38,129 bases of DNA, from positions 1 to 38,129 of IMG/VR virus record IMGVR_UViG_3300012683_000015. The stretch is one strand, 5' to 3'. A program made the translations under genes and the position numbers. Under the pieces are notes generated by a model that made no database searches, was not told the origin of the DNA, and worked only from the letters and a program-made list of their open reading frames with translations. This DNA is from a virus. This document shows, one piece after another, positions 136 to 30,675 of this stretch. The stretch's first letter is position 1; the number at the start of each line of letters is the position of its first letter.

Positions 136-1931
136 TGGCTGCCTGGGAAAGAGCTCCCGTAGTAGAGGATAAAGCCGCGTCAAACTCGGGCGATGGCGGC
201 ATATTCAATGATGGAGATTCCAGCTTCAGCGCCAGTCTCGGGTTTGGCCAAGCGAGTTTGCAACAACCCACCAGTGGCAGGTCGGCCTGGCAGTCGGCTC
301 CGCTCGAGAGCGAACGGCCGATGCCGAAGCGCGCCAAGACTGCGATGGAACACGTCAAGGAAGTGGTGGGAAGTGGACCGCTCGGCGCAGCTGCAGGCGT
401 GGCTGAGACTGGTCTTTCGATGCTCACCGGCATGGGTGGGCAGATTGCTGGTGGTCTTACTGGCGCCGCAAATCTGGCTTTCGGTGGCTCTGTTGACGAG
501 GCTGCTGATGTTGTGCGCTCGGTACAGGGGGCGATGACCTACTCTCCCAGGACGGCGGCCGGACAGTCTCTTTTACGATTATCTTCGATGCCGATGAACT
601 ATGCCTCCGAGGCGACTGGAGCGGCAGGGGAGAAGATCGGTGGCGCAATCGGCGCGCCCATTGCAGGAAGGGCAATCGGAGAAATCATCCCGCCCGTTGC
701 TGCCACTTTATTCGGGGGCGTCAGGAGCATGAAAGCGGCCTCCGAGGCGGCGGTTGAAGGGGCGAAACCACGGCCGACTACTCCCAAGGAGGACGTCACC
801 AAGATCGCTCAGAGTGAGGGATACGTCATTCCTCCAAAGGATATTCCGGGTGCTGGTCCGGTCGGCAGGACCCTGCAAGCTGTGGGCGGAAAGCTCAGAA
901 CGCAACAGACCGCCGCTATCCGGAATCAGCCTATCACGAACGATCTGGTCAAACAGGATCTTGGCATAGAAAAAGGTGCATCCATCGACAAGGAGAGCCT
1001 TGCCGAGGTGACCAAGCGCGCGACTGAGCCTTACCGGCAGATCGAGGCAATCAACGTCCCATTCAAAACGACCGATGGCTTTCGAAAGTCCATCTCGGAT
1101 CTTGCCAAGCCGCTGCGCGAGTTCGGGCAAAAGTATCCGAACATCGTGAAGAACGATGAAATCCGCGGGCTGGTCGATGACTTATCCAAGGACGAGTTTT
1201 CTCCCAATGAATCCGTTTTCATCATCCGGCGCCTGCGCGAACAGGGTAATGCGAACATGGCCGCCACCAGAATCAAGCCGGATGCAATCAAGAGCGAACT
1301 GGGACGGGCTCAGCTAAAGGCTTCCGGCGCCATGGAGGACTTGGTGGAGGAGCGTCTAGGCGAGATGGGGCAGCCGAAACTGCTGGGAGATTTCCGCGCC
1401 GGCCGCCGTCTTTATGCCAAAGCGATGCAGGTCGCCAAGTCCACTGATCCGTCTGGAAATGTGAATGCGTCCGCTCTTTCCAAGGCGCTGCAGAAGGGCG
1501 TCCCGCTGGACGGCAACATGCTCAAGGTTGCAAAAATCGCATCGACCCATCCGAAAGCAACCCAGCTTGCGACCAGTCTCGGAGGTGAAGAGGGCCTGAC
1601 CGTCTTCGACACTTGGCTCGCTGGTGGAGAGCTTGCCGCCGGGCATCCGATCGGTGCAGCCGCCGTGTTGCTGCGACCGACGATCCGGGGCCGGCTGGCG
1701 CTCGGCAATCTTGGGCAGAGTCCAGCCATACGGATGCAGAATCCAGTGCCTGCGCTTGGACGCGGAGCGCCTTACGCGGCCCTGTCAGCGCCTGACACGT
1801 CACCACCGCCTATGGTCACCATGGGAGGCAATCCGGTCGCTCAGGATTCAGTCAGAGCTCGGGCTATGGCTCTTCAGCAGAGCGATCCGAGACTGTTGCC
1901 TATGTCGGCATTCGGGCAGCGGGCGCCATGA
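135..1931 (+). CDS. Probable internal virion / DNA-ejection protein (598 aa)
   Basis: A large protein with long Gly/Ala-rich segments (about residues 75-190) that look like amphipathic or membrane-interacting helices, then a charged helical part (about 215-450) and a Pro-rich end. Size, composition and position between the tail genes and the tailspike fit the ejected head proteins of P22-like phages (gp7/gp16/gp20 class), which leave the capsid with the DNA and help it cross the envelope. No lytic transglycosylase motif was seen. The ATG overlaps the preceding TAA, and the TGA overlaps the ATG of the ATP-grasp gene (ATGA). The role is inferred from context and composition, not from a recognised domain. 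Confidence 0.6.
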   Translation: MAAWERAPVVEDKAASNSGDGGIFNDGDSSFSASLGFGQASLQQPTSGRSAWQSAPLESERPMPKRAKTAMEHVKEVVGSGPLGAAAGVAETGLSMLTGMGGQIAGGLTGAANLAFGGSVDEAADVVRSVQGAMTYSPRTAAGQSLLRLSSMPMNYASEATGAAGEKIGGAIGAPIAGRAIGEIIPPVAATLFGGVRSMKAASEAAVEGAKPRPTTPKEDVTKIAQSEGYVIPPKDIPGAGPVGRTLQAVGGKLRTQQTAAIRNQPITNDLVKQDLGIEKGASIDKESLAEVTKRATEPYRQIEAINVPFKTTDGFRKSISDLAKPLREFGQKYPNIVKNDEIRGLVDDLSKDEFSPNESVFIIRRLREQGNANMAATRIKPDAIKSELGRAQLKASGAMEDLVEERLGEMGQPKLLGDFRAGRRLYAKAMQVAKSTDPSGNVNASALSKALQKGVPLDGNMLKVAKIASTHPKATQLATSLGGEEGLTVFDTWLAGGELAAGHPIGAAAVLLRPTIRGRLALGNLGQSPAIRMQNPVPALGRGAPYAALSAPDTSPPPMVTMGGNPVAQDSVRARAMALQQSDPRLLPMSAFGQRAP

Positions 1932-3244
1932 ACCTGCTACTGATCGATACCGAAGCCATGGGCCTGGACCTCGCCTACCGCGCGGCTGAGGCGGGCCACG
2001 CTGTGAAGCTCTATCGGCTGCAAGACAAACCGGTGCGCGACGGCGAAGGCTTTCCCGGTGTAACGCTGGTCGACAGCTGGAAAGAGCACATGAACTGGGC
2101 TAAATCCGGACTCGTGGTCACGACCGGAAACGTAAAGCTCACGCGCGAGCTGGACCGCTATCGCCAGTACGGCTTTCCGATCTTCGCTCCGACGCACGCG
2201 AGCGCGCAGCTGGAGATAAATCGCAAGACCGGCATGGATCTGATGTCCAAGCATGGGCTGAATATCGCGCCGTTCAAGATGTTCGACTCATTGAAAGCAG
2301 CGATCGATCACGTGGTCAAGACTGACGAGCGCTACGTGTTCAAGACCATGGGCGACGAGGAGGACAAGTCGCTGTCCTACGTGTGCCACTCGCCAGAGGA
2401 CATGATCGGATGGCTGGAGAAGCGCATCGAAGAGGGCTTCAAGCCCAAGGGGCCGGTGATGCTGCAGGAGTGCATCGACATGGTCGGAGAGGTCGGCATT
2501 GCCGCCTGGGTCGGACCGAAAGGATTCATCGACAAATGCGAACTATCGTTCGAGCACAAGAAGATGATGAGCGGAAACTTCGGCCCCAACACCGGTGAGA
2601 CCGGGACCGTTTGCAAATACGTGACCGAGGATCCGCTGGTCGATCTGATCTACGAGTTCGAGGACGATCTGATCAAGCTCGGACACATAGGAGACATCGC
2701 GATCAATGGGGGCGTCAATGCCAAGGGCTACTGGCCTTTCGAGTGGACCGCACGCTTGGGGTGGCCTGACTTCTTTATCCGCACTGCGATGCACCAGGGC
2801 GATCCGATCCAGTGGATGCGGGACCTGCTCGACGGCAAGGACACGCTGAAGATCCGCGGCGAGATCGGTATCGGCGTGCTGATGACGCAGCCGCCATTCC
2901 CGGCCAAGAACGAGGAGCCCGATAAAACGCTCGGCATCCAGGTACACGGGCTGGCCGGTGTGTGGGACAACGTGCACCCGATCCAGTTGATGATCGGTGA
3001 GGGGCCGAAGATTTCGAATGGGAAGCTGGAGCGTCAGGACACGATGCAGACGACGGGCGAATACGTGCTCGTCGCCACCAGCCTGGGCAAGACCGTCGCG
3101 GCCGCGCGAGAGAAAGTCTACGGCGCTATCAGTGAGATCAAGCTCGCCAACGCGATGGTCCGCGATGACATCGGCGAGGCTCTCGAACAGCAACTGCCGA
3201 AGCTGCACGCGCTCGGCTACTGCAAGGATGTGGAGTACTCATGA
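1928..3244 (+). CDS. ATP-grasp enzyme resembling phosphoribosylamine-glycine ligase (PurD-like, 438 aa)
   Basis: The N-terminus (MNLLLIDTEAMGLDLAYRA) looks like the nucleotide/substrate-binding start of PurD-type enzymes. An ATP-grasp core follows at about residues 100-290, with 'YVFKTMGDEEDKS', 'GPVMLQECIDMVGEVGIAAW' and a late acidic metal-binding segment around 'DIAINGGVNAKGYWPFEWTA'. PurD joins glycine to phosphoribosylamine in purine synthesis. Here no other purine gene is nearby, and the gene lies between a virion protein and the tailspike, so a host-like purine role is doubtful; peptide or amino-acid ligation to another substrate is equally possible. ATGA overlaps couple it to both neighbours. 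The family assignment is by motif reading only. Confidence 0.7.
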   Translation: MNLLLIDTEAMGLDLAYRAAEAGHAVKLYRLQDKPVRDGEGFPGVTLVDSWKEHMNWAKSGLVVTTGNVKLTRELDRYRQYGFPIFAPTHASAQLEINRKTGMDLMSKHGLNIAPFKMFDSLKAAIDHVVKTDERYVFKTMGDEEDKSLSYVCHSPEDMIGWLEKRIEEGFKPKGPVMLQECIDMVGEVGIAAWVGPKGFIDKCELSFEHKKMMSGNFGPNTGETGTVCKYVTEDPLVDLIYEFEDDLIKLGHIGDIAINGGVNAKGYWPFEWTARLGWPDFFIRTAMHQGDPIQWMRDLLDGKDTLKIRGEIGIGVLMTQPPFPAKNEEPDKTLGIQVHGLAGVWDNVHPIQLMIGEGPKISNGKLERQDTMQTTGEYVLVATSLGKTVAAAREKVYGAISEIKLANAMVRDDIGEALEQQLPKLHALGYCKDVEYS

Positions 3245-5528: not shown

Positions 5529-5827
5529 GCCATCGCCTGATCCGCATCGGCGACTATTCGGTATCGGTCGACCATCTGAGCTCGTTCGAGCACGAGTACA
5601 AGAATGAGGATCCTGACGTTAAGGATCCTCGCAGCCGTCGGCCCGGATATTTGTGCATTTTCACGATCAAATTCGAGAATACGTACACGGTCTACTTTCG
5701 CCACCTATCGATCGAGGAGCGCGATAAGCATCTGGGGCGGGAGGATCTGGCCCGCTATCTGATCGAGAATTTGAAAGGCGCGAGCGCGGTCCGCTCGTTC
5801 AAAATGAAGGGGGAACACGATGAGTAG
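5525..5827 (+). CDS. Unknown 100-aa protein inside the lysis cassette
   Basis: Starts with GTG overlapping the lysozyme TGA (GTGA); a second GTG two codons upstream is possible. The product is soluble and charged, with a beta-rich N-terminal half ('IRIGDYSVSVDHLSSFEHEY') and a helical end ('EERDKHLGREDLARYLIENL'). No family was recognised. It separates the lysozyme from the membrane proteins, so it may modulate lysis or simply ride in the operon. Confidence 0.75.
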   Translation: MSHRLIRIGDYSVSVDHLSSFEHEYKNEDPDVKDPRSRRPGYLCIFTIKFENTYTVYFRHLSIEERDKHLGREDLARYLIENLKGASAVRSFKMKGEHDE

Positions 5828-8033: not shown

Positions 8034-8126
8034 TCAATTCCACCACCCGATCGCAGCGCCCGCCGTGTAGCCGAACAGGAACGCGAGCAGCAGGATCACG
8101 GCGTAGGGGAGCCAGCGCAGGGTCAT
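8034..8126 (-). CDS. 30-residue one-helix membrane peptide
   Basis: ATG at 8126 overlaps the upstream TGA (ATGA); TGA at 8034-8036 lies one base before the next ATG. The product is a single hydrophobic helix ('AVILLLAFLFGYTAGAAIGW') after a short 'MTLRWLPY' start. It is supported by the tight spacing on both sides; function unknown. Confidence 0.65.
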   Translation of the reverse strand: MTLRWLPYAVILLLAFLFGYTAGAAIGWWN

Positions 8127-8437
8127 GGGGTCTCGGCCAGCAGTGCGTCGATGCGATTGATCAGCGTCCAGGTTCGCTCATATTCTGGGTTCTCGGCCCA
8201 GAGCATGTGCTGCACGCGCCATGGTCCTATGCCACTTGACCAATTGCCAGCCGTGTTCATGATGGTTCGATATCCGGCCGATTCACCAGCCTTGGGTATT
8301 CCACCGATTGTGCCGGACAACCCCATCGGACCGGGAGTGAAGATCTCGCCGTCTGGTACTTGAATAAGCTTGCTTGGAACGCGCGCATAGATTTCTTCAC
8401 GAGCCTGCTGCAAAAGTGATCTCAAGTGCTCGTTCAT
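8123..8437 (-). CDS. Unknown 104-aa modular early protein
   Basis: Begins 'NEHLRSLLQQAREEI' and ends 'LINRIDALLAETP'. The same two half-motifs (LRxLLxxARE and RIDxxLAE) occur in the protein encoded at 9785-10246, with different sequence between them. The middle is Gly/Pro-rich ('GEIFTPGPMGLSGTIGGIP'). Function unknown. The start ATG overlaps the stop of the double-glycine peptide gene (ATGA). Confidence 0.75.
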   Translation of the reverse strand: MNEHLRSLLQQAREEIYARVPSKLIQVPDGEIFTPGPMGLSGTIGGIPKAGESAGYRTIMNTAGNWSSGIGPWRVQHMLWAENPEYERTWTLINRIDALLAETP

Positions 8438-8559
8438 CTGTTGAATGTCCTGTGGTTAAAGATGATGGGGTCTGGCTGAGTAGTGCCGCCCGTGACCTCG
8501 GAAAGCTGGTCCGATGTAAGTTCGACCAGTTCCACCACCTCAACGACTTTCTCGTCCAT
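8434..8559 (-). CDS. 41-residue peptide with double-glycine (bacteriocin-type) leader
   Basis: ATG at 8559 is preceded by AAGGAG six bases upstream, one of the best ribosome sites of the operon. The TGA at 8434-8436 overlaps the next ATG (ATGA). The first 25 residues end in 'ELTSDQLSEVTGG', matching the class II bacteriocin/microcin leader consensus LSxxELxxIxGG at every key position (Leu-12, Leu-7, Val-4, Gly-2, Gly-1). The remaining 16-residue 'core' (TTQPDPIIFNHRTFNR) is hydrophilic, unlike a classic membrane-active bacteriocin. No transporter/peptidase gene is present. Whether it is processed is unknown. Confidence 0.6.
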   Translation of the reverse strand: MDEKVVEVVELVELTSDQLSEVTGGTTQPDPIIFNHRTFNR

Positions 8560-8938
8560 GTGGTTCTCCTTCAACGCCCTGAATACCCGGCACTGGGTCG
8601 GGCGTTTCCGGTGCCGGTACTAATTCCTCTTCCTGCTCTGGATGTTGTTCGTAGTACCGCTCGCGTACGTATTCTTGCTCAATGTCAATTTGCTCGGCGC
8701 GTCTGCGTTCAGCCATGTGTTGCTGATGCACTTCCTCCTGCCGTTCTTGTTCGCGTTCTTCTTCTCGGCGCTCAATGTTTCTGCGCTCGCGGTCATAAGT
8801 TTCGGTATAGGCTTCCTTGCAGGGATCCGACGTGTGACGGTCGTACATTTCGTAGTCGCGACGATCATACTGTGCGTCTCTGCGAGCTTGGTCTTCGTGC
8901 TCGCGTTCGTTCCAGCAGAAACCGTAATATCGGCTCAT
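8540..8938 (-). CDS. Highly charged Arg/Glu-rich helical protein (132 aa)
   Basis: ATG at 8938 overlaps the upstream TGA. From about residue 10 to 95 the protein is dominated by Arg, Glu, Asp, Gln, His and Tyr ('RDAQYDRRDYEMYDRH', 'ERRNIERREEEREQERQEEV'), predicting a long, possibly single or coiled helix. The acidic, Pro-rich end follows. No known domain. The stop lies 20 bases inside the next gene. Low complexity makes homology unreliable. Confidence 0.72.
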   Translation of the reverse strand: MSRYYGFCWNEREHEDQARRDAQYDRRDYEMYDRHTSDPCKEAYTETYDRERRNIERREEEREQERQEEVHQQHMAERRRAEQIDIEQEYVRERYYEQHPEQEEELVPAPETPDPVPGIQGVEGEPHGRESR

Positions 8939-9201
8939 GTTTCCTCCTTCAGCGTCTCCGGGGCGGGCGGGTCCGGCGACGGTACAAAAGCTATTACGAG
9001 ACGTGCGCATTCCTGAACTATCTGCCAGTCGATGTCGTACTCCATATCCTGTGCGTAGCGGTAACGCTTGTATCCTGCGGCCCACGCTTCGGCGCTTGGC
9101 TCGACTGTCGCTGGCTCGGCTCCATTTATCTTTATTTGCATTACACACATCACCATCAGCCGTTCTTCCAGTTCGGCGACGCGCGTTTCACGGTCATGCA
9201 A
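8935..9201 (-). CDS. Coiled-coil protein (88 aa), possibly the second half of a split gene
   Basis: The only usable start is a TTG at 9201 with no good ribosome site. The frame continues upstream with coiled-coil-like residues ('DDKSVEGRLRQRLHDRETRV') back to the TGA that ends the previous gene, which is in the same frame. So this ORF and 9250-9501 may be one gene divided by a single stop. The C-terminal part ('AWAAGYKRYRYAQDMEYDID') is unassigned. Confidence 0.6.
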   Translation of the reverse strand: MHDRETRVAELEERLMVMCVMQIKINGAEPATVEPSAEAWAAGYKRYRYAQDMEYDIDWQIVQECARLVIAFVPSPDPPAPETLKEET

Positions 9202-10246: not shown

Positions 10247-10449
10247 CCCGCCGCCCTCCACCGATACGATTCCGTCCAGGTCGCGCCCAGCTCGTTGAAC
10301 GTGCTCTTCGCGATCGTGAAGCTCTTGGTCACGCGATGCCATTCCTCCGACCGCTCGGTCCGGACGAACTGGTACTCGGCCCCGATCTTCGCCAGCGGCG
10401 TGTTGCGCAGCGGGTGCTCGGGTGGCAGGGCGGAGAGGGAAGTGGTCAC
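10243..10449 (-). CDS. Unknown 68-aa protein downstream of the NinB-like gene
   Basis: GTG at 10449 overlaps the ninB-like TGA (GTGA) and the stop overlaps the next GTG. The protein is compact and soluble ('GAEYQFVRTERSEEWHRVTK'), with an Arg/Trp-rich end. No family recognised. Its position suggests a link to recombination or replication, but this is only context. Confidence 0.65.
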   Translation of the reverse strand: MTTSLSALPPEHPLRNTPLAKIGAEYQFVRTERSEEWHRVTKSFTIAKSTFNELGATWTESYRWRAAG

Positions 10450-10838
10450 GTCAGTTCTATTCCGAGCTCGCTCGTTGCATACGCCTCGATTTTCTCGATG
10501 TAGCGCGAGAACTCGGCCACCGTCAGGCTCTTCGTTGACGCCGGATACGGCCCCGACGGGCTCTCGATCTTCGGCAGGTACAGCGCCCGGAAGTGCTCGT
10601 GCCATGCGTCGCGGCTGAACTGCCTGCCGTCCAGCCATGCGTTGTCGCTGATGTCCGACAGCAGCGCCCAGTAGAGGCGGTTCTGATCCAGCGAGCGCTT
10701 GTCGGACTCCGCGCCTAACTGGCACGTCATCGGGTGGCCGCTCTGAGCCATGGCACGCCAGTTGCCGCGGATCACGGCCAGCACGCGCTCCAGGATCAGC
10801 GGATCGCGGATCACGTAGCTCTGTGCGAACTGGCTCAT
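10446..10838 (-). CDS. ninB: NinB-like recombination protein (130 aa)
   Basis: Contains the NinB signature 'KRSLDQNRLYWALLSDIS' near residues 47-64 and the family's later 'HEHFRALYLP' and 'LTVAEFSRYIEKIEAYA' segments. Lambda NinB (Orf) is a DNA-binding recombination mediator that acts with single-strand annealing systems. The ATG at 10838 overlaps the recT TGA (ATGA), which also supports a joint recombination function; longer in-frame extensions upstream lie inside recT and are rejected. Confidence 0.85.
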   Translation of the reverse strand: MSQFAQSYVIRDPLILERVLAVIRGNWRAMAQSGHPMTCQLGAESDKRSLDQNRLYWALLSDISDNAWLDGRQFSRDAWHEHFRALYLPKIESPSGPYPASTKSLTVAEFSRYIEKIEAYATSELGIELT

Positions 10839-11620
10839 TCGGCTTGAGCCTGAACGTCCGTGACTACGCCGTTCTGTCGGCGTTTTTCGCCTTCCTTTTT
10901 CAAGGCGCTGCGCGTCTTGCTGTTGGGCGAGAGCACGTTCCACAGCGCCAGGCGCTGTTCCTGGTCCAGGTTCTGGTCCTCCATGTGCTCGTAAGCGCCG
11001 AATGGATTGTTATCGACCTCGACCATCTGCACGAGGTTTGCCGCCAGCTCGCGCAACGAAACCATCTGGTCCGGGTTCTCTTCTGCCCAGTCGCCGAGCG
11101 CGTTCTTGACCGGGTTGATGGCCTTTTCCTCCTTCGGAGTCTCGAACTGCTGCACCTCCTCAGGAACGTAAAAACCGCCCGTAGCGCCCGGGAAACAGGC
11201 CCGCACGCCCTCGCTGATTACCCTGGCCCTGAGCATCTGCCTCGGATATTTGGCCCACATGCTGCCTTCCTTGCCGGTCAGCTGGGCAGCCTTGGCGCGG
11301 CGCATGTCCCAGTCGATTTCGACCGAGCCGCCTTGCGGATGCGTGAACACTGCCGATACTTTCTCGTCCGTCATGCTCGTCCATCTGACGGAACCGCCGG
11401 CGCTCTGAAAACGCGCCAGGATGGCATCGGCCTTCAGGGCAGGGCGTCCCTGGATGATGTTGAAGTCCATGGCGACCGAAGCCGGATGCCTTCCTTCGGC
11501 CTGGGCCACGAGCATCAACGCGAGCGCCTGCTCCGAAGTTTTTATACCGAAGAGGCCGGACTTGGCGACGGCCGCGGCCATCGTCTGGATATCGGTTACT
11601 GGAATCAGATCGGTTGCCAT
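10835..11620 (-). CDS. recT: RecT-family single-strand DNA annealing protein (261 aa)
   Basis: Promotes annealing of complementary single strands during phage recombination. Family features seen: 'QALALMLVAQAEGRHPASVA' with 'FNIIQGRPALKADAILARFQ' (residues ~31-71), a central beta region, and 'MWAKYPRQMLRARVISEGVR' (~120-140) as in RecT/Bet-type proteins. The start has a near-perfect ribosome site (GGAGGTGAGAA-ATG). No partner exonuclease (RecE, Exo or YqaJ type) was recognised in the window. It lies downstream of a folded RNA with its own promoter, which may control its expression. Confidence 0.87.
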   Translation of the reverse strand: MATDLIPVTDIQTMAAAVAKSGLFGIKTSEQALALMLVAQAEGRHPASVAMDFNIIQGRPALKADAILARFQSAGGSVRWTSMTDEKVSAVFTHPQGGSVEIDWDMRRAKAAQLTGKEGSMWAKYPRQMLRARVISEGVRACFPGATGGFYVPEEVQQFETPKEEKAINPVKNALGDWAEENPDQMVSLRELAANLVQMVEVDNNPFGAYEHMEDQNLDQEQRLALWNVLSPNSKTRSALKKEGEKRRQNGVVTDVQAQAE

Positions 11621-12730: not shown

Positions 12731-13101
12731 GTTCCCTCCTTGATGGCGGCGTCGTTTCTTGACTTCATGATGCGATCCATCATCGTGTCAAGCGATTTAG
12801 CGGTTCCCTTTCCATCTGCAAGAAGCCGCCACAGGTGCGCCATTCCTTGGGGATCTGTGAGTCCATAGCGCCACCTCGCCGCATCCTTCGCATCTTGTTC
12901 ACTCGGCGCGGCCGTTTCGATCTTTGTCGCTTCGTCTTCGTCATGAGTCATCAATATCAGTTTGACCTGCACAGGATCCATGCTGAAGTTCTGCGCGAGT
13001 TGTGCGTCGCTGTAACCAAACTCGTCACGACTCCACGCAAGTGCTTTCATACGAGCTTGCAAGAATGCTTCCCACGGATGCACTGACGGCCTGCTCGTCA
13101 T
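12727..13101 (-). CDS. Unknown modular early protein (124 aa)
   Basis: ATG at 13101 overlaps the stop of the TIM-barrel gene (ATGA). The first half contains 'EFGYSDAQLAQNFSMDPVQV', which could be a helix-turn-helix-like or simply helical segment. The second half has 'DAKDAARWRYGL', a variant of the DAARYRWLR module also present at 9785-10246. Function unknown. Confidence 0.7.
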   Translation of the reverse strand: MTSRPSVHPWEAFLQARMKALAWSRDEFGYSDAQLAQNFSMDPVQVKLILMTHDEDEATKIETAAPSEQDAKDAARWRYGLTDPQGMAHLWRLLADGKGTAKSLDTMMDRIMKSRNDAAIKEGT

Positions 13102-13784
13102 TCGAATATCCTCGACTGCGTTTCGATCAATTTCCATGTGCGCGGCGCCTGCGCAGCATCGATACGCTTCGCCTTGCAATTGGCGCAGCCGGTGTCTCGC
13201 TTGAAGTTCTGTCCGACGTTCGTCGAATCCGCCGATGCAAGCGGCCACGGGCCTTCGACCTGCCCAAGCATGCGAAGACCGTGCATCCACGGAAGGCGAA
13301 TCCTTCTGCGACTTAGCGCATTGAACGCCTCGTCCATGCGCGCGCACCAGTTCGGTGAGCCAATTTCCCAGTAAGCTCCGCTTGATCCCAAGCAGACGCG
13401 CGGCCAGTGATCGGACAGTTCGAGCAGCCAATCGATCGATAGGCCAAGGTGCCAGACCGGTGCGCCGAGCAGCTGCCAGAATGGCCACGTATGAGTGAAG
13501 ACGCGTTGCCGTCCAATGTCGCCGTCGATCACGTCCGGAATTACAGCCCAATGCGGATGCTGAAGAATCGGTTCGAGCCAGCGGTAATAGTTCATCACGT
13601 CGAGCTGACCGCCGCCGCGCTTGAACAAAGAGAAGGCGCCGTTATCGAACAGTACTGATTGCCCAATGCGCAGCACTACATCGAGGTCGTCTGGACGCGC
13701 GAAGGACACGCAGAAATGACAGCCGGCCATCGCGAGTAGTTCAACCCGCGGAGTGATCGGAGTGCCGTGATAATGGATCGTCAT
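13098..13784 (-). CDS. Candidate TGT/DpdA-like TIM-barrel protein (228 aa)
   Basis: Starts 1 base after the preceding stop. The motif 'VLFDNGAFS' (about residues 44-52) resembles the DSGGFQ/DSGAFS segment that carries the catalytic Asp of tRNA-guanine transglycosylases and of DpdA, the phage/bacterial enzyme inserting 7-deazaguanine into DNA. 'HWAVIPDVIDGD', 'GAPVWHLG' and 'PRVCLGSSGAYWEIGSPNW' follow in barrel-like order, and Cys200/Cys203 near the end may bind metal. The second acidic catalytic residue could not be assigned. No preQ0-synthesis genes are in the window. The family link is tentative; an unrelated TIM barrel is possible. Confidence 0.5.
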   Translation of the reverse strand: MTIHYHGTPITPRVELLAMAGCHFCVSFARPDDLDVVLRIGQSVLFDNGAFSLFKRGGGQLDVMNYYRWLEPILQHPHWAVIPDVIDGDIGRQRVFTHTWPFWQLLGAPVWHLGLSIDWLLELSDHWPRVCLGSSGAYWEIGSPNWCARMDEAFNALSRRRIRLPWMHGLRMLGQVEGPWPLASADSTNVGQNFKRDTGCANCKAKRIDAAQAPRTWKLIETQSRIFE

Positions 13785-15571: not shown

Positions 15572-15600
15572 ACAGTAAAGCAATTGGACCATGGTGTCAA
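15572..15600 (-). promoter_or_regulatory. Leftward early promoter
   Basis: On the minus strand a perfect -35 TTGACA (15595-15600), 17 bases, then TACTGT (15572-15577). The start is expected near 15565, ahead of the first leftward gene. The -10 is weak, which leaves room for activation; the -35 is shared with a palindrome. Confidence 0.65.
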
Positions 15601-15610
15601 GGCCCTTGAC
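15596..15610. promoter_or_regulatory. Palindromic probable operator between divergent promoters
   Basis: GTCAAGG-C-CCTTGAC is a perfect 15-base palindrome with 7-base arms. Its two arms contain most of the two back-to-back -35 boxes, so a dimeric repressor bound here would block both promoters. The natural candidate is the Cro-like protein encoded just to the right. Confidence 0.6.
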
Positions 15611-15634
15611 GACGGCCATTTTACGGGCTATTCT
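15606..15634 (+). promoter_or_regulatory. Rightward early promoter, probably giving a leaderless mRNA
   Basis: TTGACG (15606-15611), 17 bases, TATTCT (15629-15634). A start 7 bases after the -10 falls at 15641, the A of the ATG of the Cro-like gene, and no ribosome site precedes that ATG. This resembles the leaderless cI message of lambda. Confidence 0.68.
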
Positions 15635-15640
15635 GCGTTT

Positions 15641-15856
15641 ATGGATCCTCAGCGCGCCGTCGAGCTGGCCGGAGGCACCCGTGCCGATCTGATCCGGGTG
15701 TTCACCTCGCGCGGCCTGAGAATGACCAAGCAGGCCGTGAGCCAGTGGTTCCAGGCGGGCCGGATTCCGCGCGATCGCGTGGACCAGCTACGGGTGCTGC
15801 GGCCCGACTGGTTCAAGGGACGAAACGGCGCTCTCGCGCACAGGGTTGAGCGGTAA
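15641..15856 (+). CDS. Cro-like helix-turn-helix regulator (71 aa)
   Basis: The helix-turn-helix is at about residues 14-42: 'LIRVFTSRGLRMTKQAVSQW' with the recognition helix 'TKQAVSQWFQAG', typical of Cro/YdaS-type phage regulators. Its ATG coincides with the predicted transcription start. It is the first rightward gene and faces a palindrome at both early promoters, so it probably represses them. No CI-type partner gene is found on the other side, where Cro/CI pairs would place it. The C-terminal 15 residues are basic. Confidence 0.78.
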   Translation: MDPQRAVELAGGTRADLIRVFTSRGLRMTKQAVSQWFQAGRIPRDRVDQLRVLRPDWFKGRNGALAHRVER

Positions 15857-27955: not shown

Positions 27956-29482
27956 ATGCGAGTTTCGATCGTCATCCCGGCATTCAATGGCCGTAAATGG
28001 ATCCGGGCAGCCGTCGACAGCGCCCTGGCGCAAGTCCTGATCGACAGCGACGGGCTGCCGGAGCTTTACGACGTTTGGGTGCGGGATGACGGATCGACCG
28101 ATGGGACCCTGGATGCCTTAGACGGCATCCAGGACCACCGGCTGCACATCGTGCGCGACCCGGAGAACCTGGGCCTTGCGCACTCCTTCCAGCGCGCCTT
28201 CGACTTGGCCACTACGCCATACGTATGCGTGCTGGGCCAGGACGACCTGATCGATCCGGATTACCTGGCCAGCGTGCTGAAGGTGTTCGGCGAGCGCGAT
28301 CTCGCCATGGTGTCGTGCCATCCGCGCTTCATCGATGGCGAGTTCGCCCCGTTCACGAACCTGGAGGACGCGCGCCTGAAGGTGCCGTTCCCGCAAAACG
28401 GTAACCGCGAGGAGATCCTGGCGCGCCTGTCCTACGGCAACTACTACTTCGGCATCAACACGTACCTGCGCCGCGCCGTGATCGATGCCGGCGGGTTCGA
28501 TCCGAAGGCCGGGTGGCTGATCGACTGGGACCTGTACTGCCGGCTGCTCAAAACGCACGAAATCCACATCATCGAGCGGCCCCTGTGCAGCATGATGCTG
28601 CGCGCCGAGTCCACCAGCTTCATCCGGCGCGACCAGATCCCGCAGCAGCACGCCTATTTTCGATACGTGCGCGAGCGCCACTTCCGACCCGATCCGACCC
28701 GCATGAAGGTGATCCTGGCGACGCCCTTTTACATGCAGCAAGAAAACTCGATGTTCGGCCAGTCGATGATCGCCACCTGCACCATGCTCACGCAAGCCGG
28801 CATCCCGTGGGACCTGATCCGTGTCGAGGGCGACTCGTACGTGGACCGGGCCAAGAACACGATCGTCGCAAACTTCCTGGAGTCCGACGGCACGGACCTA
28901 ATCATGATCGACTCCGATGAGTCCTGGAGCCCGATTGCGATCGCGCGCCTGCTGCAGCATCCGGAGGAGATCGTCGCGGGCGCCTACCCCTTCAAGAACC
29001 GCTGGGGCCAGTTCGCCGGCAACCCGTTGATGAGCGAGAAAAACGGCCAGCTCGAGTACTCTGGCCGCGAGCTTTCAGACGGATCGTGCCTGCTGGAGGC
29101 ATACAGCATCGCGGGCGGGTTTTTGCGGGTGAAGCGCTCGGCCTTCGAAAAGTTTGCGGACTTCTATCCGAACGACGTGTATCAGGACGACTACGCCTGG
29201 CCAGGTCGGTCGGGGCGCATCTACACGGCGTTTTTCGAGTGCGGCGTGCACGAATATTTCCGCTACGGGGAGGATTCGAACTTCTCGCGCAAGATGCGCG
29301 CGGCCGGCATCAGGATCTGGATCGATCCGAACATCACGATCCGCCACCACGGCATGCACAGCTGGGAAGGGAATCTCCATGAGCAGCTGCTGCGGCCGCT
29401 GCCGGAGCGCGAGCGCATGCGCCTGGAGATGGAGGCGCAGCAGCAAGTGGCCGCAACCCTGGTGAAGGTGGCGGCGACATGA
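27956..29482 (+). CDS. Two-domain glycosyltransferase (508 aa)
   Basis: Residues 1-~240 are a GT2-type (GT-A fold) domain: 'VSIVIPAFNGRKWIRAAVDS', 'VWVRDDGSTDGT', the metal-binding 'LGQDDLID' (93-100) and a late 'GWLIDWDLYCRLL'. A second unit starts at 'MKVILATPFYMQQENSMFGQ' (~250), with 'AKNTIVANFLESDGTDLIMI' and the DxD-like 'IDSDES' (318-323). Each half could transfer a sugar, and together they may build a short glycan. It sits between the decoration protein and a methyltransferase, so virion protein glycosylation or host-surface modification are both possible. ATGA overlap follows. Confidence 0.85.
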   Translation: MRVSIVIPAFNGRKWIRAAVDSALAQVLIDSDGLPELYDVWVRDDGSTDGTLDALDGIQDHRLHIVRDPENLGLAHSFQRAFDLATTPYVCVLGQDDLIDPDYLASVLKVFGERDLAMVSCHPRFIDGEFAPFTNLEDARLKVPFPQNGNREEILARLSYGNYYFGINTYLRRAVIDAGGFDPKAGWLIDWDLYCRLLKTHEIHIIERPLCSMMLRAESTSFIRRDQIPQQHAYFRYVRERHFRPDPTRMKVILATPFYMQQENSMFGQSMIATCTMLTQAGIPWDLIRVEGDSYVDRAKNTIVANFLESDGTDLIMIDSDESWSPIAIARLLQHPEEIVAGAYPFKNRWGQFAGNPLMSEKNGQLEYSGRELSDGSCLLEAYSIAGGFLRVKRSAFEKFADFYPNDVYQDDYAWPGRSGRIYTAFFECGVHEYFRYGEDSNFSRKMRAAGIRIWIDPNITIRHHGMHSWEGNLHEQLLRPLPERERMRLEMEAQQQVAATLVKVAAT

Positions 29483-30675
29483 ACTGCCGGGCCTGCGGCT
29501 CTCATTTGTCGGTCAAGATGATCGACCTCGGAGCCGCGCCCCCCTCGAACGCGTTCAACGCGAGCCAGGATGTGCTCGAAGAGCACTACCCGCTGCGGGT
29601 GTGGGTGTGCTTGGCGTGCGGACTGGCGCAGACCGACATCACGATGTTCAAGCTCAACCACGATCAGCTTTTCGTCGAGGATTATCCGTACTACTCAAGT
29701 ACATCGACGCAATGTGTTGAGCACGCGCGCCGCTACGTTGAGCAGATGACCTATACGCTCAACCTGAATCAATCCTCGCTCACGGTGGAGGTCGGCTGCA
29801 ACGACGGGTACCTGCTGCAGTGGATGACCACCCCCTGCTACGGCATCGAGCCCACCGGCACCGCAGCCGCCGCGCGCGAGCACGGCCTCACGGTCCTGTC
29901 GGAGTTCTTCGGTGAAGCCTGTGGGCGTGCGCTGGCTCGCAGCCGCAAGGCGGACCTGATGGTGTGCAACAACGTGCTGGCGCATGTGCCGGACGTGAAT
30001 GACTTCGTGCGAGGCTTTGCGGCGCTGCTCGCCCCGCAAGGAGTTGCGACCTTCGAGTTTCCGCACCTGCTGAACCTGATACGCGGCTCGCAGTTCGACA
30101 CCATCTATCACGAGCACTACTCGTACCTGTCCCTGACGGCGGTGGTGAACCTTTTAAAGCGCGCACACCTGACGGTCTTCGGAGTCGAAAAGCTCTCGAC
30201 TCACGGCGGCAGCCTCCGCGTGCACGCCCAGCACGAGGGCGGGCCGCACCGGCTGGACGAGAGCGTCGTGCTGGTCCTGGCCGAGGAAAAGTGCCTGGCC
30301 GAGCCGGCCTTCTACGACGCCTTCCAGGCCAACGCCGACCGCGTGAAAAACGATCTGCTGTTCTTCCTGCTGCAGGCCCGCTCGCTAAGTCAAACCGTGG
30401 TCGGATTCGGAGCCGCGGCCAAGGCCAATACGCTGCTGAATTACGCCGGCATCCGTGCGGATCTGATCCCGTACGTGGTGGACGAGACGCCGGCCAAGCA
30501 CGGCAAGTTCATGCCCGGCTCGCGCATCCCGGTGGTTCCGGAGTTCGGCGATCGGCCCGACTACGTGGTCGTGTTTCCGTGGAATTACCGCGAGGAGATC
30601 AGTGCCAAGCTGGGGCTGATGCGCGCGGCTGGCACGCGTCTGGTGTTCGCGATCCCGCACCTGGAGATCGTCTAG
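29479..30675 (+). CDS. Class I SAM methyltransferase of the sugar C-methyltransferase family (398 aa)
   Basis: Three parts as in NDP-hexose C-methyltransferases. There is an N-terminal zinc domain (Cys3, Cys6, Cys44, Cys47; 'NCRACGSHL', 'VCLACGLAQ'). A Rossmann core follows with SAM motif I 'VEVGCNDGYLL' (103-113), 'YGIEPTGTAAAAREHGL' and 'DLMVCNNVLAHVPDVNDFVR'. The C-terminal domain has 'VVGFGAAAKANTLLNYAGIR' and 'YVVDETPAKHGKFMPGSRIP'. Known members methylate nucleotide-linked deoxysugars. Here it overlaps the glycosyltransferase gene (ATGA), so a glycan substrate is likely. Confidence 0.85.
   Translation: MNCRACGSHLSVKMIDLGAAPPSNAFNASQDVLEEHYPLRVWVCLACGLAQTDITMFKLNHDQLFVEDYPYYSSTSTQCVEHARRYVEQMTYTLNLNQSSLTVEVGCNDGYLLQWMTTPCYGIEPTGTAAAAREHGLTVLSEFFGEACGRALARSRKADLMVCNNVLAHVPDVNDFVRGFAALLAPQGVATFEFPHLLNLIRGSQFDTIYHEHYSYLSLTAVVNLLKRAHLTVFGVEKLSTHGGSLRVHAQHEGGPHRLDESVVLVLAEEKCLAEPAFYDAFQANADRVKNDLLFFLLQARSLSQTVVGFGAAAKANTLLNYAGIRADLIPYVVDETPAKHGKFMPGSRIPVVPEFGDRPDYVVVFPWNYREEISAKLGLMRAAGTRLVFAIPHLEIV

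Follow-up and report, generated by a model that had tools for sequence, protein, structure and literature searches.

A phage-encoded peptide with a double-glycine leader of the C39 type and a short predicted core in a P22-like podovirus

Main finding

The window (the whole stretch of DNA that was analysed, 38,129 bases, being the full length of the IMG/VR phage record) encodes on its minus strand a 41-residue peptide with a double-glycine leader. We favour, with some reservation, the reading that this peptide is a phage-encoded precursor of the C39 type that borrows a host exporter, its core acting outside the cell. The leader, which is acidic, would fold into a short helix and present a face (L-15, L-12, L-7 and V-4) that docks into the groove of a C39 peptidase domain belonging to the host, either in a PCAT or in a C39-type ABC protein of type I secretion. 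The host enzyme would then cleave after Gly25 and export the 16-residue core, which would act extracellularly as a short peptide. The host is predicted to belong to the Burkholderiales, and it is likewise a prediction that the gene is expressed, that the precursor is cleaved and exported, and that the core is active. Short cores in both phage and host speak against a pore-forming bacteriocin and in favour of a signal or of interference; the core would most likely take part in host peptide signalling or act against it, instead of forming pores.

The peptide gene

The peptide gene, its signals and its neighbours are as follows:

8034..8126, minus strand: 30-residue membrane microprotein (hydrophobic by eye), MTLRWLPYAVILLLAFLFGYTAGAAIGWWN, coupled to or overlapping the 104-residue gene and lying two genes after the peptide
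8123..8437, minus strand: downstream gene of 104 residues with no family match, ATGA-coupled to the stop of the peptide gene
8434..8559, minus strand: gene for the double-glycine leader peptide, 41 codons, ATG at 8559, stop TGA at 8434-8436; homologue in contig L131 (E 3.8e-8)
8437..8484, minus strand: predicted core of 16 residues, TTQPDPIIFNHRTFNR, deduced from presumed cleavage after the double glycine
8485..8559, minus strand: leader, residues 1-25, MDEKVVEVVELVELTSDQLSEVTGG, with anchors at -15, -12, -7, -4, -2 and -1
8540..8938, minus strand: upstream gene of 132 residues, overlapping the start of the peptide gene by 20 nt; L131 has an unrelated 97-residue gene instead
8566..8571, minus strand: Shine-Dalgarno sequence AAGGAG, 6 nt ahead of the peptide ATG, identical in L131
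8935..10342, minus strand: four small genes (88, 83, 96 and 185 residues), with homologues in the same order in contig L141

The reading frame translates to MDEKVVEVVELVELTSDQLSEVTGGTTQPDPIIFNHRTFNR. The precursor is predicted to split as MDEKVVEVVELVELTSDQLSEVTGG^TTQPDPIIFNHRTFNR, and the length of 16 residues for the core follows from placing cleavage after the double glycine. A first, sequence-only reading of this DNA had described a 41-residue gene with a strong ribosome site and ATGA coupling, and the translation, the AAGGAG motif and the ATGA overlap all bear this out. Judged by its sequence, the peptide gene is real. AlphaFold gave the 41-residue peptide a short helix at residues 16-22 only, with low confidence.

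A syntenic homologue in a second phage

A scan of IMG/VR for a Shine-Dalgarno sequence, an ATG and the leader pattern returned 15 stretches, L131 among them. The L131 peptide, MSDETEVVEVVEMVELTPDELLEVSGGMHPDPFI, is 67% identical to that of the window (E 3.8e-8), and the likeness extends past the search pattern to VVEVVE and PDP. Within the core, PDP-[IF]-I is partly retained in L131, which is cut by the contig end. Upstream of this peptide, L141 carries homologues of the window's 185-, 96-, 83- and 88-residue genes with their order kept, while the gene directly before the peptide differs (132 residues in the window versus 97 in L131). The P22-type capsid protein of the L131/L141 phage is just 32% identical to that of the window, so the small-gene module is common to distant phages. 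Within this module, positions 9143-9186 of the window are identical over 44 bp to L141:14228-14271, inside a gene whose proteins are 41% identical, which suggests a recent exchange or a constrained site.

The 21 leader codons that could be aligned between the window and L131 hold 8 synonymous and 6 non-synonymous differences, giving a dN/dS of about 0.19 in what is a small sample; on the same small sample, 5 amino-acid changes were observed where 8.8 would be expected under random mutation (P 0.009). L-12, L-7, V-4 and the double glycine are unchanged, and the exchanges include L/M at -15 and Q/E at -8. Relatives that had lost the double glycine and kept the rest would speak against a leader function; the sole syntenic relative retains both the double glycine and the anchors, with mostly synonymous drift, so that retention of the anchors is seen in one syntenic homologue. 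A chance reading frame is extremely improbable: the frame is short and a search of 50,697 phage records gave no relative, but it has a syntenic homologue under purifying selection in which the Shine-Dalgarno sequence is also retained.

The phage and its leftward operon

The record has a P22-like portal and head gene set and belongs to a P22-like podovirus. The genes that place the peptide within it are:

10446..10943, minus strand: NinB recombination protein (Pfam PF05772, 40.9 bits)
10835..11620, minus strand: RecT-like annealing protein (Pfam PF03837, 26.0 bits)
13098..13784, minus strand: queuine tRNA-ribosyltransferase, DpdA-like, in the leftward operon (phrog_887, E 4.5e-41)
15584..15856, plus strand: Cro-like regulator (PF14549 P22_Cro, E 0.0023, a weak match below the cut-off)

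The long leftward operon on the minus strand, of early type, contains the queuine-transferase-like gene, RecT and NinB, followed by the small-gene module with the peptide. It appears to start at a divergent switch with the Cro-like gene, which on the plus strand (15584) is followed by a replication gene. By analogy with lambdoid early operons, the distal early operon in which the peptide lies would be the usual place for host-interaction genes.

Elsewhere in the operon, the DpdA-like gene at 13098-13784 suggests DNA base modification. At 1928-3244, a gene resembling phosphoribosylglycinamide synthetase (ATP-grasp) stands directly ahead of a tailspike-like gene and is retained in the relatives L106 and L089. 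After the capsid genes, 27956-30675 holds a gene that by eye looks like a glycosyltransferase, relatives of which occur in several phages, and one that by eye resembles a methyltransferase.

The first reading had noted that the window has no peptidase-transporter, and our search agreed: a C39 peptidase was absent from this record and from the seven further phage records searched (0 of 8). A transporter in the same genome is usual, not universal, for C39 substrates, and the phage record has none.

Leader anchors and the likelihood of a chance match

Substrates of C39 peptidases are defined by hydrophobic residues at -12, -7 and -4, often also at -15, before Gly-Gly, Gly-Ala or Gly-Ser, and anchors of this kind are required for cleavage or export (PMC6363468, PMC7018657). 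In this numbering, the window peptide has L-15, L-12, T-11, Q-8, L-7, V-4, G-2 and G-1, and so carries each of the hydrophobic anchors and the double glycine. The claim of a match at all key positions therefore stands for these residues and fails at -8, where the peptide has Gln and the consensus Glu (PMC6363468). Gln at -8 is also found in the L164 host peptide, which adjoins a C39 exporter.

A leader matrix built from 35 leaders was used to scan 1.14 Mb made up of the window, phage and related DNA, in which the window peptide scored 18.7 bits and no other start among 38,927 possible reached 12 bits. Shuffling the peptide 200,000 times equalled its score twice, and among 300,000 random proteins one did so. 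Such rarity is insufficient alone, because the feature was picked out of many windows; it is homology that settles the matter.

Similar peptides in unrelated phages

Peptides with this type of leader, followed by cores of 6-7 residues, are encoded on two further phage contigs, both unrelated to the window. In L150, a different phage, the peptide MSETTEVTDSVEPVELVELTPEQLEAVSGG^WIGAVSW is encoded at L150:3548-3661, and its gene begins a few nucleotides after an SU10-type major capsid gene stops. In L132, the peptide MEQKAPEVEVVELSLDELDLVGGG^QGMTVL precedes two genes, one HNH-like and one for a lysozyme. Both peptides were found with the leader pattern, and finding the anchors at -12, -7 and -4 in them was therefore partly built into the search. 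The residue at -15 lay outside that pattern and does count as independent evidence: it is hydrophobic in all four phage peptides. The three complete peptides stop soon after the double glycine.

Other matches were set aside. L123 and L127 matched the leader pattern within longer phage proteins, and in L154 a Sec-like signal precedes the leader-like string; L087 and L088, found with a strict leader pattern, were judged chance matches, and L153, L155, L157 and L167 were not accepted as double-glycine precursors. A VEL pattern mostly matched inside one large, unrelated protein family. On the minus strand of L134, a match at 5573-5637 belongs to a protein of at least 500 residues, nucleotidyltransferase-like by eye, that starts with the leader-like MPRIDGELSEEELEQVVGGSK.

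Searches by similarity found no further relatives. The window, L131 and L150 peptides gave no tblastn match in the 50,697 phage records, and searches of viral contigs with the neighbouring genes and RecT were likewise negative. No peptide was present in 23 portal-related records, where the minus-strand module was absent from the stretches examined, and a 14-bit match in one of them fell within a long frame and was judged to be chance. RecT relatives from Manatee Spring were without the peptide. Profile A3 matched 61 stretches of viral contigs, of which none was confirmed; further relatives may exist. A single-peptide search of 369 genomes of the class of G029 gave no match.

These comparisons bear on whether the peptide is secreted at all. 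It could instead be a small phage protein that stays inside the cell and resembles a leader in its helix and Gly-Gly, a reading that we consider unlikely though by no means negligible: the same string occurs in the non-substrates L123, L127 and L154, the family scores lie under their cut-offs and the phage lacks an exporter. Against this, the anchors and the double glycine are retained under synonymous drift, the complete peptides end shortly after the double glycine, a hydrophobic -15 recurs in four of four peptides without having been searched for, and matching host peptides lie beside C39 exporters.

A second, distinctly unlikely possibility is a decoy, in which an abundant leader would occupy the host C39 peptidase and block export of host double-glycine peptides (signals or bacteriocins), leaving the core as a dispensable tail. 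The retention of the leader while cores are short and variable among phages would fit such a role, as would the position of the L150 gene just after the stop of a major capsid gene, a place of high expression. However, the cleavable double glycine is retained throughout, whereas a blocker would benefit from its loss, and PDP is common to the cores of the window and L131, which a useless tail does not need. A secreted precursor with an active core remains the preferred reading.

Class assignment

Class II bacteriocins have a membrane-active core that is commonly about 30-60 residues long. The window core is polar and has 16 residues, with neither a Gly-zipper nor cysteines. The search with double-glycine leader models that had been proposed gave no score above a curated cut-off: Pfam Bacteriocin_IIc (PF10439) matched the leader only, at 13.5 bits against a cut-off of 27.1, and TIGR03949 did not match the window peptide, while its relatives matched in the leader part, below the cut-off. 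The same held for the NCBIfam double-glycine leader models, which matched leader portions alone and below cut-off. The neighbours match no immunity family, the 30-residue membrane microprotein being two genes on. That the peptide is a class II bacteriocin or microcin, carried by the phage to kill competitors of the host, is very unlikely. The leader matches to Bacteriocin_IIc and TIGR03949 point that way, but every score falls below its curated cut-off, no immunity candidate was recognised, the relatives have cores of 6-7 residues, and the short-core relatives in hosts stand beside regulators. A bacteriocin role was accordingly not sustained, and by score, core size and core type the window peptide is not a class II bacteriocin.

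The peptide does fit the sequence definition of a C39 substrate and is a predicted one, but it has no transporter in the same genome. It shares leader length, the anchors at -15, -12, -7 and -4, Gly-Gly and a small precursor with C39/PCAT substrates such as ComC-type signals and colicin V-type microcins (PMC6363468, PMC7018657). It differs from them in being encoded by a phage that lacks a C39 transporter and in which no gene for immunity or modification was recognised, and in its core of 16 residues (6-7 in the phage analogues). With class IIb/IIc bacteriocins (PF10439, TIGR03949) it shares a leader segment that matches the models below their cut-offs, and the core does not match. Arbitrium/RRNPP phage peptides (PMC10075063) are likewise phage-encoded and short and would need host export and processing; they belong to Firmicutes and have an adjacent receptor, whereas the window peptide has a C39-type leader and no identified receptor. 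The neighbours of the peptide matched no receptor family, and the Cro-like gene lies 7 kb off. A literature search, mostly outside subscription papers, found no description of phage-encoded double-glycine leader peptides of Gram-negative phages. The known kind is the double-glycine peptide, and what is new is the phage setting without an exporter and the minimal cores.

C39 exporters and short-core peptides on the host side

Relatives of the portal and coat proteins occur in MAGs called Betaproteobacteria and Alphaproteobacteria, the coat being 74-77% identical in L090 and L093. Because of these relatives, the host may be a betaproteobacterium, an assignment resting on MAG bins, which can be wrong. 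Candidate hosts were to be checked for C39 transporters, and in the host-candidate order Burkholderiales PF03412 scored above cut-off in 77 of 150 genomes, where the weak matches may be of the inactive C39-like kind. The betaproteobacterial MAG G027, which contains the phage relative L093, has a C39 ABC exporter (122.6 bits) with an HlyD-like partner. Dependence on a host machine, as first suggested, is therefore plausible, given a phage that lacks C39 and an order in which it is common.

A profile built from the four phage peptides found five matches in 369 Burkholderiales genomes, picking out chromosomal double-glycine peptides, some of them with very short cores. Two of the five lie at most 4 kb from strong C39 exporters, in G864 (L170) and G813 (L171). 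The G813 locus (L171:5400-11700) encodes three precursors, one ending GGG^DVTVVIG and two GGG^DVTVVIA, which are flanked by two TPR-HD proteins and have a C39 exporter and HlyD nearby; the locus looks like an undescribed peptide-signalling locus. One of these precursors has LTSDQL exactly as in the window peptide. In G914 (L172:5881-7030), the peptide MQVEAKVGQENEVVELSLEQIDIVAGG^FPVVPPLGGGG comes directly after a regulator of LuxR type that has an autoinducer-binding domain, a position at which LuxI might be expected. The L171 and L172 peptides thus have the leader type of the window peptide and very short cores, but are chromosomal, stand beside TPR-HD or LuxR-type genes and have cores unlike that of the window. 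As the profile descended from the leader pattern, what it shows is that phage leaders resemble genuine C39 leaders and that hosts, too, have very short cores; joint action of the phage and host peptides does not follow from it.

Implications

Phage peptide communication is known from Firmicutes. A wider possibility, of rather low probability, is that short peptides exported by C39 proteins are carried by phages of Proteobacteria and join or jam a little-known form of host signalling, in which short-core double-glycine peptides would be exported by C39 proteins and received by TPR-HD or LuxR-type proteins; this would be either a Gram-negative counterpart of that communication or sabotage of host signalling. 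With a conserved phage gene for a C39-type leader, interaction between phage and host by means of peptides would reach into the Proteobacteria, and host C39 exporters would be something that phages exploit or block. The short-core double-glycine loci of the hosts are concrete candidates for the system that the phage peptide would touch.
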